Below, in pieces: positions 24,977-35,517 of a DNA stretch of 36,895 bases. This DNA comes from a virus, in the IMG/VR virus record IMGVR_UViG_3300049218_000489, positions 1 to 36,895 of that record; one strand, written 5' to 3'. The translations under genes and the position numbers were made by a program. Each line of letters begins with the position of its first letter. The stretch's first letter is position 1. The notes under the pieces are model-generated. The model was not told where the DNA came from and ran no database searches. It saw only the letters and a list, made by a program, of their open reading frames with translations.

Positions 24977-24998
24977 GCGCCGCACGCATAAATTAGAA

Positions 24999-25246
24999 AG
25001 GTTACAGCGTTACAGCTTTGGTTACATGAATTAATCATATTATCTCTTTCAATATCAATAGTTTAATAGGAGGCTGTAACGCTGTAACGCTGTAACCCCT
25101 ATTTTGGTGTGCAGAGAAATCATGATTTCGGTTTTCCTTTGGAGAAGCCAGATTTTGCCAATTCGCGTTACAGCAAGGAAATTTCAGGCACTTTAGCGTT
25201 ACAGCCCCGCGTTACAGCTGGTTACAGCTGGTTACAGCGTTACAGG
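24999..25246. repeat. GTTACAGC iteron cluster with AT-rich core, candidate replication origin
   Basis: Direct GTTACAGC copies start at 25001, 25009, 25167, 25198, 25211, 25221 and 25231; GTTACA(T) is at 25021 and GTTACAGG at 25239. Three inverted copies (GCTGTAAC) lie at 25073, 25081 and 25089. Spacing is 8 or 10 bp in the tight arrays. Between the left copies and the inverted copies is a 45-bp AT-rich stretch (25027-25071). The cluster fills the only gene-free gap of the replication region, just after the ATPase gene. Clustered iterons plus an AT-rich unwinding element are the usual layout of initiator-bound origins. Confidence 0.7.
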
Positions 25247-25260
25247 TGATTTTCTCGGGC

Positions 25261-27000
25261 TTATTCCTCAAACTTGTCGATCTCATCCCAAGAAATCCAA
25301 ATAGCCTTACAAGGGCCAAGCTCACTCACCCGCACCACTTTCGGGCTTTTCCACGCCGATGGCAGGCGACGAAGCTCCACAATCCAGCGGTCGCCGTCAT
25401 GCGGCGTGTTCGCAAAAATGCCACGTAACGGCTGCCATCTCGGGTCAATCCACACACCGGCCGTCATCGTCATGCGCGGGATCACGCGCCCCTGGCCGTC
25501 CACAACCTCATCAGCGCGCACAGGGCGCAACCCCCAACGTGCCAGCACGCGCATCGCCGCGAAGCGGGCGTGTTCATCACCAGGCGTCGATAAAGGCTCG
25601 AAACAGTTCCGAATGAGCTTGGCGATGGATTCCTGGTCCGTGCTTCGATCCAGGCTCACCACCTTGCTCAGCAGCATCGCCAGCACGGCCTGCGGCGCTG
25701 AGTCCGCGCGCATTTCCTCGCCGCCAACAATGAACTCGCCGATTATTTTCACGGTCTCTGCGGCCGCATCGATATCCGGCACGCCATTTTCCGCAAGTAC
25801 CCAATGCCCGGCCAGGATGGACCCGATTTGGTCCATCTCACGCGCCACGCATCCAGCAGCGCCAAGTGCCTCACGAAACACCTGCAGCGCAGCTTTATAT
25901 CGATCAAACCCAGCCAGCGCGCGCTCAAAAAGCGCGGGACCCGCTTTAAGCGCGCGTTCGGTCGCCGCCTTCATCAGCGCCGTATGGTCAGCACCTGCTT
26001 CCGGCCGCAGCAGCTCGATCATCGCGAAGCGCGAGCGATGCTGCGGCTGCATCGCCGGCGGATTTATGCTGGCCATGATCACGCTGCCAACCAGATCGAT
26101 GCTTCGCACACTGCCATCCGCCGTTCCACGATGGCCCTTTGTGCCTTCGCCCGAGCTTGCCGAGAGAACGACGTTCAGCAATGTCTCAGCGCCGCCATGG
26201 TCAAACGCCTCATCAATGAAACACGGCATGGCGCGCCCGGAAATCGCGCCCTCGATCCCGGCTTTCGTCGTATCATTGGAATAATGGTTCAGCGGCGTCA
26301 TCGCCCGCAGGAAATTCAGCAGCGCCGATTTGCCCGAATTTGTCCCGCCGGAAATGAACCCGTTGGACCGCCAGGACAGCCCGGCGGCATAATAGCCCTG
26401 CGCCACCAGGCCAATCGCGATAATCTCGCCGCCCTCATGCTGCAGCCGCCACAACGTACGCACATCGTCGCACAAGGCTCGCGCTGTTAAGGCGTCACAC
26501 GGCGTCTCTGCAGGATACGGTGCCGGAGCGGCCGCCGCAAAAACCTGGCCGGCGACTTTCGCCCCTGAAGGATGCTTTTCGCCGTCAATGAACAGCGCAT
26601 CGCCACAATGGGCGATCAGCGTGCCATCCTCGCCAGGCCAAACACCGGGCCGGCGCACAACGATATGCTCACCGTAAATCCCCGCGCGCCGGCATTCGGC
26701 CATAAGAAATTCAGTCGCCCTGGCGATTGACCAGCCCTTGGGATTTCCCTCGGCATCCGTCGCGCGAAATTTGCGCTGCAGCCACGCCGTGTCTCCCAGG
26801 AACAGAGAGGTGATTTCCGGCCGCGACCCCATTTGACGCGCCGAAAGTCCACGCTTTTCTCCAACAATATTCAGAAACCAGAATTTTCCGTCCACATGGC
26901 CCAACGCGGTTATCGGGCACGCAATTTCGTCTGTCTCCGCCGGCGGCGGCGCTTTGCCTTTCCGCTTCCGCGCCGCGGCAAGTGAAATCGGCGCCGGCAT
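25261..27000 (-). CDS. Phage replication P-loop ATPase/helicase-like protein
   Basis: 579 aa. Walker A G-G-T-N-S-G-K-S at 218-225, Walker B-like P-C-F-I-D-E-A at 259-265, then S-S-G-E-G-T-K-G-H-R-G-T and S-V-I-M-A-S-I-N-P-P, the order seen in DUF927/D5-like superfamily 3 phage helicases. The N terminus begins with a lysine/arginine-rich segment (ARKRKGKAPPP) and has no recognisable primase active site. It is the largest early gene, lies next to the iteron cluster, and is the best candidate for helicase loading or unwinding at that origin. ATG follows the upstream stop directly (TAGATG). Confidence 0.8.
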   Translation of the reverse strand: MPAPISLAAARKRKGKAPPPAETDEIACPITALGHVDGKFWFLNIVGEKRGLSARQMGSRPEITSLFLGDTAWLQRKFRATDAEGNPKGWSIARATEFLMAECRRAGIYGEHIVVRRPGVWPGEDGTLIAHCGDALFIDGEKHPSGAKVAGQVFAAAAPAPYPAETPCDALTARALCDDVRTLWRLQHEGGEIIAIGLVAQGYYAAGLSWRSNGFISGGTNSGKSALLNFLRAMTPLNHYSNDTTKAGIEGAISGRAMPCFIDEAFDHGGAETLLNVVLSASSGEGTKGHRGTADGSVRSIDLVGSVIMASINPPAMQPQHRSRFAMIELLRPEAGADHTALMKAATERALKAGPALFERALAGFDRYKAALQVFREALGAAGCVAREMDQIGSILAGHWVLAENGVPDIDAAAETVKIIGEFIVGGEEMRADSAPQAVLAMLLSKVVSLDRSTDQESIAKLIRNCFEPLSTPGDEHARFAAMRVLARWGLRPVRADEVVDGQGRVIPRMTMTAGVWIDPRWQPLRGIFANTPHDGDRWIVELRRLPSAWKSPKVVRVSELGPCKAIWISWDEIDKFEE

Positions 27001-27804
27001 CTACTGCGCCACCAGAACCGACGGGCCCATGTATGGCCGCTGCAATCTTTTCCTCACCGCCTGGCCGTGCGCCACGTCATCGCACACAATTCCACCGTCG
27101 CACCGGCTCATCCAGTCGTAGTTTTCCTCATCGCTGCCAATCAGCACCGCGCCGCCACATTTTTCCTCAAGCCAGCCCTTCACGGTTTTGAAAATACGTT
27201 GCGGCAATTCGTTAGAAATTTCAGGATAGACCGGCCCGCCAATCACCGGGCTTCGGAACGTCATGCGTCCCAGCACTTTTGAGAAATTGGCGCTCACGGC
27301 AACCAGCTCATAAATATCCGGCCCTCTGGTAGCTTCCAGCGCAGCACGAAAGCCGATCTTTTCGCGAGCAGTCTTTGAATATGCCTGCCAAACTTCTGGA
27401 TCAAAGCACGGTGATTCACTATCCAACCACATCGCCATCAGATTCGCAGCGAGGCCGGTGCGCACGGCAACAACCCAGACCCAGCTTTTCGCGCTGGCAT
27501 TTTCAAAATCCGGATGCAATTCGAAAATCCCGTTTCCGTCTTCATCTTTCGAAAGGGTGATGGGCGACGGAATAAGAACCTCGAAGAAATATGGGCCCAG
27601 CTTCACCATCACGTCGCAGACGGGTTGCGGCATGTCGCCGCGAAATTCAGGATTCCGCCGCGTCAATCCGAAAGGCGGAAAATATAGGATAGGCAACGAA
27701 GCCGGCAGCTTCCTGGTGAGCAATCCCACCATATATCGGCGCCGAATTTCCCGCCAAAGCATATTCAGATCCATCACGACAATTCCCCCAACAAACATGA
27801 TCAT
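27001..27804 (-). CDS. Hypothetical early protein
   Basis: 267 aa from the ATG at 27804, which overlaps the upstream stop (ATGA). N terminus hydrophobic then basic (MIMFVGGIVVMDLNMLWREIRRRYMVG). The body contains F-P-P-F-G-L-T-R-R-N-P, W-V-W-V-V-A-V-R-T-G-L-A-A-N and K-C-G-G-A-V-L-I-G-S-D-E-E-N-Y near the end. I do not recognise a family. Its coupling to the ATPase gene directly downstream suggests a replication partner, but this is position only. Confidence 0.7.
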   Translation of the reverse strand: MIMFVGGIVVMDLNMLWREIRRRYMVGLLTRKLPASLPILYFPPFGLTRRNPEFRGDMPQPVCDVMVKLGPYFFEVLIPSPITLSKDEDGNGIFELHPDFENASAKSWVWVVAVRTGLAANLMAMWLDSESPCFDPEVWQAYSKTAREKIGFRAALEATRGPDIYELVAVSANFSKVLGRMTFRSPVIGGPVYPEISNELPQRIFKTVKGWLEEKCGGAVLIGSDEENYDWMSRCDGGIVCDDVAHGQAVRKRLQRPYMGPSVLVAQ

Positions 27805-28085
27805 GCGGCGCCCTCGCAACTTTCAATTTCTTGTTTCATTCTTGCCGTCTCGTCCAGCTGCACGCCGGCGGCCGTCAGTCTTCCAATTTGCGGCGCCAAT
27901 CGAGTCACAGCGTCTTCGGTTGCCGGAAAATATGCGCCGCAGATAAACATCCCGGTCGCGATCGCCATCACGCCCAGCAGCTCGCGGTCCGAAACACCGG
28001 GAGAGCCCCGCCGCACCATCTCGCAAATCCGAATCGCCGCATCCCGCAGCCTTTCGCCCATTTCCGCCTCATGGGCGCCGCTCAT
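27801..28085 (-). CDS. Small hypothetical early protein
   Basis: 94 aa, helical, no motif identified. It has a charged N terminus (HEAEMGERLRDAAIRICEMV), a central hydrophobic helix (L-L-G-V-M-A-I-A-T-G-M-F-I-C-G-A-Y-F, about 37-54) that might be membrane-associated, and a charged C-terminal helix. ATG overlaps the upstream stop (ATGA at 28082-28085) and its own stop overlaps the next start, so it is translated within a tightly coupled early operon. Confidence 0.68.
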   Translation of the reverse strand: MSGAHEAEMGERLRDAAIRICEMVRRGSPGVSDRELLGVMAIATGMFICGAYFPATEDAVTRLAPQIGRLTAAGVQLDETARMKQEIESCEGAA

Positions 28086-29026
28086 GCCGCGCGCCTCTTG
28101 AACTTCGGCGCATTTGAGACTTTTGCCAGTAGGGCTCCGCCTATCGTTGGCGCCGGCAACGTTTCCACCGGCCCACGCGCATTGAGAACAACGAAAACCG
28201 GCAATGCAAAACCCGTCCGCGCCGCATTTATCTTTTTCAAAGCCGCACCCTGCGCCAGGCCCTCGATATCAACCTTGTTGAACTTCGCCCAATCGCTGAT
28301 CGCTTGCCAATCCGTCGCCGCGACATCCGCGTTTCTACCGGCGTGGTCTTCAAGCAGCCGCGCCACGGAGACCTCAATTTTCGCCGGTACGGCCGGCAGC
28401 CGCCCCTGGGTTTTCAACAAGTGGTAGCGCACCGTCACTGCTTTTTCAGTCAGCTCGCGCCCCGGAAGTTCGTTCACGAGCTCGGTAATCCGCGCCCAGC
28501 CTTGCCCGTCGGCTTTCAGCCGCGTCATCAGCAACTCGCGCGCCGCACTCCACGGGTCTACCGCGTGCACAATTTTTTCGGCCACTTTCACAACGGGCAG
28601 CTGGCCGCTGCGCTTCAGGTCCGAATGTTTCCACTGCAGGGCAGCGACGCTGGCAATCTCGCCGCCCGGCATCGCGTTCAGCTTGCCGAAAATCTCCGCC
28701 CAGCTTTCACCCATCGCCTTCGGTGTCGCCAGCGCGGTAATTCTTTCAGGCGTCCACTTCGGCGCCGGCGAAGTCACCTCCGCGCCTTGCGCCGCCGTTT
28801 CAAATTCTTCCGGCGGGTCATCCTCAAAATCGGCGTTTTCATCAGGCGCATTTACCGGCCGCTCAGTCATCACCGGGCCTGTCCGAAAAACCGGCGCGGC
28901 CGCCGGCGCCGGGCTTTGTTCAGCCTCGCCCCGCAGCGCTTTCACCACCAGCAGCGCAACCTGCTCCAGTGCCCGCAGCGTCACCGGCGATAGGTTCACG
29001 TTCACCTGGATGGTCACCTGGGTCAT
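28082..29026 (-). CDS. DNA-binding-like early protein with SANT/GcrA-like helices
   Basis: 314 aa from the ATG at 29026, which overlaps the GcrA stop (ATGA). N terminus V-T-I-Q-V-N-V-N-L-S-P-V-T-L-R-A-L, then a proline/glutamate-rich linker. From about residue 88, W-T-P-E-R-I-T-A-L-A ... S-W-A-E-I-F-G-K-L-N-A-M-P-G-G resembles a Myb/SANT-like or GcrA-like tri-helix. A similar segment, W-A-R-I-T-E-L-V-N-E-L-P-G-R-E-L-T, recurs further on. The module W-x-x-I-x-x-x-L-N-x-M-P-G-G also occurs in the protein encoded at 29498-29968, so the two are probably related. DNA binding is inference. Confidence 0.72.
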   Translation of the reverse strand: MTQVTIQVNVNLSPVTLRALEQVALLVVKALRGEAEQSPAPAAAPVFRTGPVMTERPVNAPDENADFEDDPPEEFETAAQGAEVTSPAPKWTPERITALATPKAMGESWAEIFGKLNAMPGGEIASVAALQWKHSDLKRSGQLPVVKVAEKIVHAVDPWSAARELLMTRLKADGQGWARITELVNELPGRELTEKAVTVRYHLLKTQGRLPAVPAKIEVSVARLLEDHAGRNADVAATDWQAISDWAKFNKVDIEGLAQGAALKKINAARTGFALPVFVVLNARGPVETLPAPTIGGALLAKVSNAPKFKRRAA

Positions 29027-29505
29027 CCCCACGGCGTCGCCTCGGTGCGCACCCGCACAAAGCATATCGCCGCATGCTCAGCGCAATACACGCCGGCGGA
29101 ATAAACCGGCGCATCGCAATACCGGAAATCTGGCCGGCGAGGCTCACCGAACGGAAAGCAGCATTTCTTTGCCCGCCCAGGCGCAATGTTTAACGGCCTC
29201 ATCGCCGGGCCTGCCTCCGCCGCCGGAATGATCGCCGGCACGCCCGCATCGGAAACCACAGGCAACAGCGCCGTCGCGTTCGCGGCACTCTGCCGTTGCG
29301 TGAGCACCCGTGGCGCGCGTGGCACGGCCTCGCCGGCCCCTTCACGCCGTATCGGCGAAGGCCGTGGCGGCAAGTTTAGCCGGTGCGCTTTGCCAACAAT
29401 CCCGTTTTTTGAAATACGCATGCGCCGGCCGATCTCGGCTGTGCTGAACCCCTCGGCCCACAAAGCCCGCAACTTCACGACCTGGTCATCGGTCCAATCA
29501 GCCAT
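29023..29505 (-). CDS. GcrA family cell-cycle regulator
   Basis: 160 aa from the ATG at 29505. N terminus W-T-D-D-Q-V-V-K-L-R-A-L-W-A-E-G-F-S-T-A-E-I-G, then I-S-K-N-G-I-V-G-K-A-H-R-L-N-L-P-P-R-P-S-P-I, is the GcrA signature. The C terminus has C-C-F-P-F-G-E-P ... Y-C-D-A-P-V ... Y-C-A-E-H, the cysteine/histidine pattern also found in GcrA. Host GcrA binds RNA polymerase sigma70 and activates promoters carrying methylated GANTC sites (known for Caulobacter). A phage copy may redirect host transcription. Start overlaps the end of the next upstream gene by 8 bp. Confidence 0.9.
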   Translation of the reverse strand: MADWTDDQVVKLRALWAEGFSTAEIGRRMRISKNGIVGKAHRLNLPPRPSPIRREGAGEAVPRAPRVLTQRQSAANATALLPVVSDAGVPAIIPAAEAGPAMRPLNIAPGRAKKCCFPFGEPRRPDFRYCDAPVYSAGVYCAEHAAICFVRVRTEATPWG

Positions 29506-29968
29506 CGGCGCTGCCCTGCAGTACAAACGGGGCGGCGCCGGCGCGCTTGCGCACCGCGTTCACCGTTCGCAAATCCAGCCCCATGCGCTTGGTGCTCAAC
29601 CCGTATTTCTCGGCCCACGCCTTGGCGTAGTCATACGAAACGATCCTATGAACGCCCGAAAAAGCCGCCGGAGTTGTCTGCCCCGGCGGCGAGTTAAGGG
29701 AGGAAACGTCCAAGAAGCCCGCATCGCCGGCGGGCGCGGCACCCGGCGGCGCGGTGCAAACCGTCACTGCCGAATCCTGTACAACATCCAAATACCTGGC
29801 CCGCACCGCCTGTGGCGTGGCAATGCGCCCGCCCGGCATGGTGTTCAGCTCCTGCCAGATCGCAATCCACATCTCGCCTAAGCCTGCCGGCGGCGTGCCA
29901 GGCCGCAGCCGCTCATAGGCCCGCGCCAGCGCGTCATCGCGCGCATCAGTCCAAATCACCGCGCCCAT
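29498..29968 (-). CDS. SANT/GcrA-like early protein, partner of the GcrA gene
   Basis: 156 aa. N terminus V-I-W-T-D-A-R-D-D-A-L-A-R-A-Y-E-R-L resembles the first helix of GcrA (W-T-D-x-x-x-x-x-L). It is followed by M-W-I-A-I-W-Q-E-L-N-T-M-P-G-G-R-I-A-T, the same module as in the 28082-29026 protein. The C terminus has V-S-Y-D-Y-A-K-A-W-A-E-K-Y-G and R-T-V-N-A-V-R-K-R-A-G. A nucleic-acid-binding role is likely but not proven. ATG shares a base with the upstream TAA (TAATG). Confidence 0.72.
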   Translation of the reverse strand: MGAVIWTDARDDALARAYERLRPGTPPAGLGEMWIAIWQELNTMPGGRIATPQAVRARYLDVVQDSAVTVCTAPPGAAPAGDAGFLDVSSLNSPPGQTTPAAFSGVHRIVSYDYAKAWAEKYGLSTKRMGLDLRTVNAVRKRAGAAPFVLQGSADG

Positions 29969-30426
29969 TACGGCGATTCCTTGAGGTAGAAGATCGTCTC
30001 CGCCGCCGCGCGCCGCAGGTCATCCAGCTCGCGTATCAAATCCGCGCGTTCGGCCTCGGTTAGCGCCGGGTGGCTGAGCGCGGTGGAAGACGTTGCGAAC
30101 AACTCGCCCACATCCTTGCCAATCCGCGAGAGCAGCACGGCCAGGGCGGATTTCTCGCGCATCGGTTCAACCGGCACCAGCCCATAACCCTGCGCTCTGG
30201 CGAGCGCGGCGGTAACACGCGGCGTGCCGGCCGCAAACTCCAAATCCATCACCACATCGGCGGGAATAAACCGCTCATCGGTTAGCATGGTGTAGGCGGA
30301 AAGCTGGCTGCGCCCCACACGCGTAACGGTTGCCGCGGCATCAACCCCGCCCAAATCCTGCACCAGCATCTTGGTGCCGGTTTTCACCGCGTTATACGCG
30401 GCGGGTGCAAACTGCCGCTCGCTCAT
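29968..30426 (-). CDS. CII-like phage regulatory protein
   Basis: 152 aa from the ATG at 30426. Pattern A-Y-N-A-V-K-T-G-T-K-M-L-V-Q-D-L-G-G-V-D-A-A-A-T-V-T-R-V-G-R-S-Q-L-S-x-Y (about residues 9-46) followed by F-I-P-A-D-V-V-M-D-L-E matches the N-terminal HTH of phage regulatory CII-family proteins. The C-terminal half is helical and may oligomerise. It is encoded early in the leftward operon, where a lysis/lysogeny decision protein is expected. ATGA overlap with the 43-aa gene upstream. Confidence 0.82.
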   Translation of the reverse strand: MSERQFAPAAYNAVKTGTKMLVQDLGGVDAAATVTRVGRSQLSAYTMLTDERFIPADVVMDLEFAAGTPRVTAALARAQGYGLVPVEPMREKSALAVLLSRIGKDVGELFATSSTALSHPALTEAERADLIRELDDLRRAAAETIFYLKESP

Positions 30427-30554
30427 CGCGCCCACCGCAGCAGCACAAAGCCAAAATTCCACCAGGTTCGCGCGAATAAGGTGCGAACGCCGTTCAGCCG
30501 CGCATGGTCCGCATCCGTCCCCACCAGCCAGAATTTCGGTTTTGCCCCGTTCAT
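30423..30554 (-). CDS. Short hypothetical protein, 43 aa
   Basis: 43 aa: M-N-G-A-K-P-K-F-W-L-V-G-T-D-A-D-H-A-R ending in L-L-R-W-A-R. The ATG overlaps the upstream stop (ATGA at 30551-30554) and the TGA overlaps the CII-like start (ATGA at 30423-30426). This precise double coupling argues for a translated gene despite its size. It contains W-W-N-F-G-F-V-L-L, short for a membrane helix. One copy of the dispersed palindrome (30481-30496) lies inside. No family is known to me. Confidence 0.65.
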   Translation of the reverse strand: MNGAKPKFWLVGTDADHARLNGVRTLFARTWWNFGFVLLRWAR

Positions 30555-30727
30555 TCCTCAACCTTCCCCTTTTCCGGTTTGGCGGGCGGGTCCGTCTCGG
30601 CCGGGTAGCTTTCTGTCTCCAGCGCCGCCCCGGCCGCCGGCGCTTGCACCCGGTGTTCCGGCAGCACGGCCCGGTTCGGCGCCCGCATCCGCGGCCAGGT
30701 CGGCAGCCAGTATTTCATCAGCGCCAT
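30551..30727 (-). CDS. Short hypothetical protein, 58 aa
   Basis: 58 aa: M-A-L-M-K-Y-W-L-P-T-W-P-R at the start, an alanine/proline-rich middle and an acidic, lysine-containing tail (K-P-E-K-G-K-V-E-E). AGGGG lies 8 nt before the ATG at 30727. It is the first gene of the tightly coupled leftward cluster (58 aa, 43 aa, CII-like, SANT-like, GcrA, SANT-like, 94 aa, 267 aa, ATPase). No family is recognised. The 207 bp before it (30728-30934) hold no gene that I can support, only an imperfect hairpin. Confidence 0.68.
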   Translation of the reverse strand: MALMKYWLPTWPRMRAPNRAVLPEHRVQAPAAGAALETESYPAETDPPAKPEKGKVEE

Positions 30728-33489: not shown

Positions 33490-33821
33490 TCACAAACGAA
33501 GACCTCACCCGCCTTTCCGACGCGCTCAACAGCGAACGCGCCGCCGAATCCGAATACCGCCGCCACGCGGATATCGTGAAGACCCTGGAAAAAGAGCGTG
33601 ACGACGCCGGCAACCGCTGGCTCGCCGCCAAGCGTGAACGCGATGAGCTGCTCTACGCCCTCGGCCTCGTTCCCCCCAACCCCACAATCGGCGATGTGGC
33701 GGATGCGATATCCGCAGCCGAGCGCCTCACGCCGCCAGCCGAAGACGCCGAGGGCGCCGAAGCAGGCAACGGCGATCTGCTCGCCGGCATCGCCAACCCG
33801 CCAGCGCGGAAGCGCGTATAG
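33486..33821 (+). CDS. Small helical hypothetical protein upstream of the ParB-like gene
   Basis: 111 aa from the ATG at 33486 (AAGGGA upstream). N-terminal half is charged coiled coil (L-N-S-E-R-A-A-E-S-E-Y-R-R-H-A-D-I-V-K-T-L-E-K-E), then a proline turn and an alanine/glutamate-rich helix. A GTG at 33444 lies in frame but inside the palindrome and has no SD. It ends one base before the ParB-like ATG. It may be a partner of ParB; no family is known. Confidence 0.68.
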   Translation: MITNEDLTRLSDALNSERAAESEYRRHADIVKTLEKERDDAGNRWLAAKRERDELLYALGLVPPNPTIGDVADAISAAERLTPPAEDAEGAEAGNGDLLAGIANPPARKRV

Positions 33822-33822
33822 C

Positions 33823-35517
33823 ATGGCCCCGAAATCCAAGCTCACCATCGAGCAGATCGGCAAGCTCCGCATCCGCGCGGCTGAAACCCCAACCCCGTCA
33901 CAAACAGAGCTGGCGGCGGAATTCGGCATTTCCCGCGCGCTTGTCCGCCAGGCCCTTGGCTCCCCATTGGTTGAAGGCGCGGGCGCGGCCGGCCAGGCGC
34001 CGCCCGGCTTCACCCAATCCATCCCGGCGGAGCTGCTCCTCTCCTCCCCCGTCAACCCCCGCAAAACCTTTGAGCCCGAGGCGCTACAGGAACTCGCCTA
34101 CAGCATCGCCACCAACGGCCTCATGCAAAACCTCGTGGTGCGGCCAATGGAAGAGCCTGAAGGCCGCTACCAGATCGTCGCCGGCGAGCGCCGTTTCCGC
34201 GCCATCACCCAGCTTATTGAAAACGGCCAATGGGAAGGCCCAATCCCCTGCCTGGTGAAAGACTTTTCGGAAGGCGAGCAATTGGCCATCGCCCTGCTTG
34301 AAAACCTCCAGCGCGAAAACATTCCACCCCTGGAGGAAGCCGAAGGCTTCGCCGCTTTACACGCGATGGACGCGGACCTCTACTCCGCCGCCAACATCGC
34401 GGAGACCATCGGCAAATCCACCCGCTACGTCTACCAGCGCCTGGCCCTGGCCACCAAAGTTATCCCGCAGGTGAAGGAACTCTTCAAGCGCGGCCTCATC
34501 AACATAGAAGGCGCGCGGCTCTTGGCTCAGGTGAAGCAGGAATGGCAGCGGGACATTTTGTTCGACATGGAATTCCTGGATGACGAAACAGGCGCCGTCC
34601 TGGACGAACTCGAAATAGACAGCACACCCGTCACCCCCGAGGACATCCAGAATGCCATTCAATGGAAGGAGCGCGCCGAAAAGCACGCGGCCGAACAAGA
34701 AGCCGCCCGCGCCCAACACCGCGAGCACAATGCCACCCTCGATGCGCAATCCAGCCCCTCCGCCAGCGGGCCCATAAACCCGAACGCCGGCGATGACGAA
34801 GACGGCGAGGAAATGGAAAAGCGCATCGAGCGCCAAAACCCAGACCCGCCAAAGTCCCAGCCGGTCACCAAGGCCCACATCTACCACGCCCACAACCGCA
34901 AAACCGAAGCGCTGCGTCATGAACTTTGCAAACACCATTATCACGCGGCCCGCGTCGTTTGTTTCGCGCTGTTGGTGCCGAAGGGTCCTTTCGTGAACAT
35001 CCGCAGCAACGATTACGACCGCACTTTGGAAGACCGCGTTCCCGTGGCAGCAGATCATGAGGCCGCCATCAAGGCCATCCTAGGCAAAATCAAAATCCCC
35101 AGCCACGGCGGCATAGACGCGAAGATGGAGCTCGCCCTCATGTCCTTCCTCGGCAAACTGCCGGCCGGACAGGTCATGAAACTATTCGCGCACCTGGTGG
35201 CGCGCCACGTCGGTACATTCGCCGGCGCCAGGTGCGAAGCAGGCGACGATCCGGTCACAATCATGCTGGCTGACGCCCTCGGCCTCCACGGCCAGGAGGA
35301 AGAACACGGCCTGGGCGTTGAGCCTGAAGACCTCAAAGGCGTCCGCAAACAAACCCTGCTGGCCATAGCGGACGAATCCGGCACGCCCCGCATCAACGAT
35401 GAGCTTAAGCCGCAGGAAATAGCCGACGCCATTGCCGCCCACACAAACAAATACGTCCTCCCCACCCTCCGCTTCGCCACCACCGCCGAAATCGAAAAGG
35501 CCCTGACGTTCAAATGA
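33823..35517 (+). CDS. Long ParB/Srx-like DNA-binding protein
   Basis: 564 aa, well above the usual ParB length of about 300. Domains: a small HTH at about 26-46 (S-Q-T-E-L-A-A-E-F-G-I-S-R-A-L-V-R-Q); ParB/sulfiredoxin N-terminal domain at about 66-165 with N-P-R-K-T-F (78-83), the CTP-binding G-E-R-R-F-R-A motif (121-127) and L-E-N-L-Q-R-E-N (159-166); a KorB-type HTH at about 185-235; then a charged linker and an unrecognised 190-residue C-terminal domain. No ParA gene is adjacent. In phages such proteins regulate transcription, partition or bind replication sites. Target unknown; see the dispersed palindrome. Confidence 0.88.
   Translation: MAPKSKLTIEQIGKLRIRAAETPTPSQTELAAEFGISRALVRQALGSPLVEGAGAAGQAPPGFTQSIPAELLLSSPVNPRKTFEPEALQELAYSIATNGLMQNLVVRPMEEPEGRYQIVAGERRFRAITQLIENGQWEGPIPCLVKDFSEGEQLAIALLENLQRENIPPLEEAEGFAALHAMDADLYSAANIAETIGKSTRYVYQRLALATKVIPQVKELFKRGLINIEGARLLAQVKQEWQRDILFDMEFLDDETGAVLDELEIDSTPVTPEDIQNAIQWKERAEKHAAEQEAARAQHREHNATLDAQSSPSASGPINPNAGDDEDGEEMEKRIERQNPDPPKSQPVTKAHIYHAHNRKTEALRHELCKHHYHAARVVCFALLVPKGPFVNIRSNDYDRTLEDRVPVAADHEAAIKAILGKIKIPSHGGIDAKMELALMSFLGKLPAGQVMKLFAHLVARHVGTFAGARCEAGDDPVTIMLADALGLHGQEEEHGLGVEPEDLKGVRKQTLLAIADESGTPRINDELKPQEIADAIAAHTNKYVLPTLRFATTAEIEKALTFK

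Follow-up and report, generated by a model that had tools for sequence, protein, structure and literature searches.

The Rep protein of SaPI elements recognises, via its C-terminal domain, repeats situated directly downstream of rep, and the C-terminal domain of Cch2 binds repeats, three iterons in number, downstream of its own gene (PMC7581432). PICI origins are located 3' of pri-rep, where two sets of iterons are arranged around AT-rich DNA, and this module is able to maintain a plasmid (PMC6092414). A noncoding phage origin within a replication module is described for Streptococcus thermophilus phage Sfi21 (PMC6356513), to which the present locus is likened by description only. In P4, the crr region lies directly 3' of the helicase gene (alpha); followed in the alpha sense, inverted GGTGAACA units come first, then an AT-rich stretch of 37 bp and finally direct units. 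A distinct region, approximately 4.5 kb from crr, is also marked as an origin in the P4 record. We propose that the gap at 24986-25260 of the viral record studied here is very probably the replication origin of a temperate phage, and that the helicase encoded at 25261-27000 is its own initiator.

The window, i.e. the whole stretch of DNA analysed, comprises the 36,895 bases of a viral record. It contains terminase, portal, head, tape-measure and tail genes and encodes a CI-like repressor, a YdaS/Cro-like protein and a CII-like protein (29968-30561). Judged by this gene content, it is a temperate tailed phage. Relatives of its ATPase occur in named genomes of Asaia, Swaminathania, Saccharibacter, Gluconobacter, Acidocella and Paracraurococcus, and an Acetobacteraceae host is therefore likely. 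No match to a tyrosine integrase (PF00589), a serine recombinase (PF00239) or ParA (PF13614) was found in the record, which could be a plasmid-type prophage, or incomplete. A 639-aa ParB-like protein is encoded at 33598-35517, alongside the CI- and Cro-like genes, and the Saccharibacter relatives L366 and L367 lie on contigs of 41,198 and 38,919 bases, a phage-genome size, as extrachromosomal prophages would show.

The gap is 275 bp long, gene-free and filled by the array, and is flanked by the ATPase stop (25261) on one side and the start of a 185-aa gene (24985) on the other. The features of the locus are as follows, with the blocks numbered in helicase-sense order.

25001, 25009, 25167, 25198, 25211, 25221 and 25231: forward copies of GTTACAGC
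25073, 25081 and 25089: inverted copies of GTTACAGC
25021 and 25239: near-copies of GTTACAGC (GTTACATG and GTTACAGG, respectively)
25211-25246: block I, units at 25239 (GTTACAGG), 25231, 25221 and 25211
25167-25205: block II, units at 25198 and 25167
25073-25096: block III, three inverted units head-to-tail with an exact 8-bp period
25027-25072: AT-rich core that separates block III from block IV and may serve as the unwinding element
25053-25065, plus strand: TATCAATAGTTTA, an exact match within the core to WATCARNNNNTTR, which we take to be the IHF consensus
25001-25026: block IV, units at 25021 (GTTACATG), 25009 and 25001
25261-27000, minus strand: ATPase/helicase of 579 aa, proposed initiator, with Walker A GGTNSGKS and Walker B FIDEA; phrog_21086
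25264-25728, minus strand: C-terminal domain of the helicase (residues 425-579), likely reader of the DNA word, its binding role assigned by analogy (PMC7581432)

The ten exact copies of GTTACAGC in 25001-25246 (seven forward, three inverted) compare with a chance expectation of 0.34 over both strands of the whole 36.9-kb window and a maximum of three in 100 shuffles; only two further copies, each single, lie outside the array (2089 and 7876). The first-pass annotation had described ten perfect and two partial copies, some of them 8 or 10 bp apart, around an AT-rich stretch of about 45 bp in a gene-free gap adjoining the ATPase gene. The exact-match positions and the limits of the gap bear this out, the spacings are correct, and the stretch at 25027-25072 is 75% AT, compared with 40% across the window. 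Cumulative GC skew, which had been suggested as a guide, declines steadily along the window, does not reverse at 25.1 kb and is uninformative. An Rfam search gave four matches, all sub-threshold, which the inverted units explain most simply. Within the blocks the units are mostly spaced 8-13 bp apart, whereas the iterons of Rep_3-type plasmid origins are 17-22 bp long.

To assess conservation, 14 ATPase relatives of 31-99% identity were picked regardless of repeats. An array lies directly 3' of the ATPase stop in all 14, starting within approximately 60 bp of it, and the commonest 6-mer is present in 8-12 copies in 350 bp. A first scan of genome contigs with the window protein gave no match; in a later, out-of-sample set of 11 bacterial-genome loci (Acetobacteraceae), the array was present in ten, or in eight of nine independent loci since L366 and L367 are the same records as L349 and L350, with 9-12 copies against 4-7 for the best repeat elsewhere in each locus. 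The sole failure, L374, is a gene fragment (matching residues 498-690 only), from which the array region appears deleted. The annotation had read the array as a replication origin with an AT-rich core and had proposed a check of relatives with the same ATPase for conservation of the repeat. The position and geometry of the array beside that ATPase are indeed kept, which supports the reading as an origin, whose activity we infer, but the GTTACAGC word itself is not. Other loci carry, for example, GTGTGAAC, CGTAGCC, TGGGAAC or GGGACAA, and the list of words comprises TGTAAC (window), TGTGAA, CGTAGCC, TGTTACG, TGTGAAC, TGTAACC, TGGGAAC, TGTCTCA, TGTGAAG, GGGACAA, TGTGAG, AGTGAA and CTGTGA. Across these differing words the order of the four blocks is kept in most loci: block I of 2-4 units in either orientation, then about 30 bp; block II of 2-3 units placed 8-9 bp apart, then 52-87 bp; block III of 2-3 inverted units, again 8-9 bp apart; a gap of 17-56 bp, AT-rich in most; and block IV of 2-4 units, so that the AT-rich core sits between an inverted and a direct block. 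Unit totals are 9-14 in most loci (median 11-12; L342 has seven), and L349 and L350 fit the layout if their word is read as TGTCTCA. The layout is thus conserved and the word has turned over, even between L344 and L345, whose helicases are 75% identical in the ATPase part. The C-terminal part of the helicase is the more variable, with a mean identity of 36% against 48%.

Among the relatives, the upstream genes, the downstream genes and both terminase subunits fall into different clusters while the helicase is constant, which argues against a packaging site, a late operator and a SANT-like protein as the general binder. The array could be a pac or cos site to which the small terminase subunit, encoded about 1 kb downstream, binds; in its favour, the window and every relative tabulated have a terminase gene at a distance of 1-2 kb downstream. 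However, arrays of one geometry adjoin TerL genes of two unrelated clusters and small-subunit genes of three clusters, P4 crr has the same plan and adjoins no terminase, and in phages like L015 the neighbour is a primase gene and not a terminase; we rejected this highly improbable reading. An operator or other regulatory region for the late genes starting at 24985 is very unlikely. Block IV does end 16 bp upstream of that start codon and a CII-like protein is encoded in the window, but the next gene varies among the relatives while the array stays, a scan of the array region found no sigma-70-like promoter, and an array of 9-14 units with an AT-rich core is larger than operators usually are. 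We rejected it on these three grounds; a secondary regulatory role of the array is possible.

The protein encoded next to the array offers a candidate initiator for the proposed origin. Phrog_21086, to which the helicase belongs, is related to the phage DNA primase phrog_35358, and a Pfam search of the 579 residues gave no family and no DUF927 or D5 match. A sequence search of the PDB with the helicase returned essentially P-loop matches only. The AlphaFold2 model (pLDDT 83) has as its top PDB fold match in Foldseek the SCCmec protein Cch (5dgk, E 2.8e-8) and also matches SaPIbov1 Rep (8tch; E 4e-6, TM 0.33-0.38), PriRep1, D5, NrS-1 and MCM, while matches in BFVD are to DUF927 phage proteins. 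Cch and SaPI Rep are distant matches (TM 0.33-0.43, 11-12% identity), and the model supports membership, by fold, in the class of self-loading initiator helicases of mobile elements rather than close kinship. The annotation had seen no obvious initiator gene, a view that no longer holds in light of the resemblance of the ATPase to Cch and SaPIbov1 Rep, both self-loading initiators. When residues 425-579 were modelled alone, the model was confident (pLDDT 92.6) and its helix-strand pattern resembles paired winged helices; a PDB fold search with this part gave no confident match (best probability 0.16). Position and analogy suggest that this domain probably binds DNA.

As in SaPI and PICI Rep-ori units, the array and putative origin of the window lies directly 3' of a helicase gene, two sets of short iterons flank an AT-rich region, and the words vary between elements; the fold of the helicase is remotely similar to that of SaPIbov1 Rep. 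In contrast to those elements, the window is not a helper-dependent satellite but has its own head, tail and terminase genes, and is therefore a phage and not a PICI, although its origin would, by analogy, work like a PICI origin. Cch2, from the SCCmec group that gave the top fold match, has three iterons, as against the 9-14 units in four blocks found here. The origins of P4 and of the E. coli PICI EcCICFT073 follow the same plan as the window with a D5-type helicase: the P4 crr array likewise lies directly 3' of its helicase gene and has the window geometry. The P4 word is close to several words of the window-family arrays but differs from that of the window, and EcCICFT073 differs in its word (GGTAGACA) and in its D5-type helicase, that of the window having no Pfam family. 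The P4 alpha protein is a D5_N/DUF5906/Pox_D5 protein, and hhalign comparisons of the window helicase with alpha and with EcCICFT073 Pri-Rep aligned the Walker A motif only. The array is most likely the phage replication origin, and likely one of the SaPI/PICI/P4-crr kind; new here are its occurrence in tailed phages, the turnover of the word on a fixed layout and a helicase without a Pfam family.

The array could also be an origin at which the units are bound by a separate protein (the Myb/SANT-like 327-aa, the 272-aa or the ParB-like protein) that in turn brings in the helicase. The ParB-like gene and, in 28082-29065, a Myb-like DNA-binding match that falls short of the Pfam cut-off (E 5e-4) speak for such a binder, but the Myb-like cluster is found within 3 kb upstream only in the window and L347, and that of the 272-aa protein only in the window, L342 and L355, whereas the remaining relatives have a different or no shared upstream gene and yet the same array; moreover, the P4 and PICI origins, which share this plan, go with the helicase alone. 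We regard a separate binder as unlikely, and the annotation's suggestion of a SANT-like protein, being confined to the window and L347, was rejected as a general rule. The Myb/SANT-like protein (28082-29065) and a 156-aa protein (29498-29968) fall in one similarity cluster and are possibly paralogues. The gene directly upstream of the helicase (27001-27819) encodes the 272-aa protein, relatives of which occupy this slot in L342 and L355, while in L343, L347, L349 and L009 the slot holds a different protein cluster, represented in L009 by a CHC2/TOPRIM primase; the 272-aa protein may itself be a primase that has escaped recognition, or a partner in replication.

With the helicase as the preferred initiator, we propose a mechanism that starts from what is observed, namely the array, its conserved position and geometry, the turnover of the word and the fold class of the helicase. 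The 12 GTTACAG units would be bound by the C-terminal domain of the helicase. As blocks III and IV lie in facing orientation on either side of the AT-rich core, two helicase rings could assemble in opposite orientations around it, possibly assisted by an IHF bend, before melting the core and loading for bidirectional unwinding. Only two exact matches to WATCARNNNNTTR exist in the whole window, one of them inside the core, and an exact match is present on the same strand of this gap in 9 of 19 loci including the window, against 0.15 expected from shuffles, a count inflated by the shared descent of the loci. Rather than binding IHF, the core element may act in unwinding. A conserved element was also sought in the spacer between blocks II and III, where TATAG/CTATA occurs in 9 of 20 loci and is not convincing. 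We tentatively raise the possibility, itself rather doubtful, that the layout is shaped to fit a double hexamer, the approximately 12 units serving one per subunit of two head-to-head rings; the count is only suggestive of two hexamers. If this were true, the dozens of helicase-word pairs would be a natural record of an initiator switching its DNA word while the origin is retained, since all copies change their word in concert on an unvarying geometry.

An unlabelled phage repeat becomes a predicted origin with a named candidate initiator, and a plan that a 2018 paper had described as confined to phage-inducible islands is extended to tailed phages. The origins of many uncultured phages could be found just 3' of this helicase, and the turnover of words on an unchanging geometry, seen between helicases as much as 75% identical (L344 and L345), provides pairs for studying the evolution of initiator specificity. 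Among more distant fused primase-helicase loci with enough 3' flank, the strongest repeat cluster lies just 3' of the gene in 35 of 76, at similar offsets and with words such as CCTAAC, CGTAAC, CGGGAC, CGTGAG and CGTTAC. One clade (about L261-L287) is without a 3' array; many of its members come from 80-98-kb phages, L261 having nine GTTACA units about 1.7 kb off and L284 a CGTAAC cluster about 3.4 kb off. In an independent case (G013/L125), a GTTACAGC array lies directly 3' of a D5/DUF5906 helicase.

A pattern scan of viral contigs for paired GTTACAGC returned at least 120 loci, as did the reversed control, so that single matches are uninformative and clusters informative: nine or more GTTACA in 400 bp were found in 28 of the 120 loci listed, as against none of the 120 control loci listed. 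Some of the GTTACA clusters sit in repetitive coding genes. At L045:3668-3756 there is a near-perfect 11-bp tandem array of GTTACAGCTAT/GTTACAGTTAT without the four-block layout. About 11 related viral contigs (L023, L048, L078, L092, L096, L126, L128 and similar), most of them short fragments, carry approximately 12 GTTACA units within 314 bp; neither a helicase like that of the window nor a DUF5906 match was found in those tested, and the array lies near a terminase and an endonuclease VII gene.
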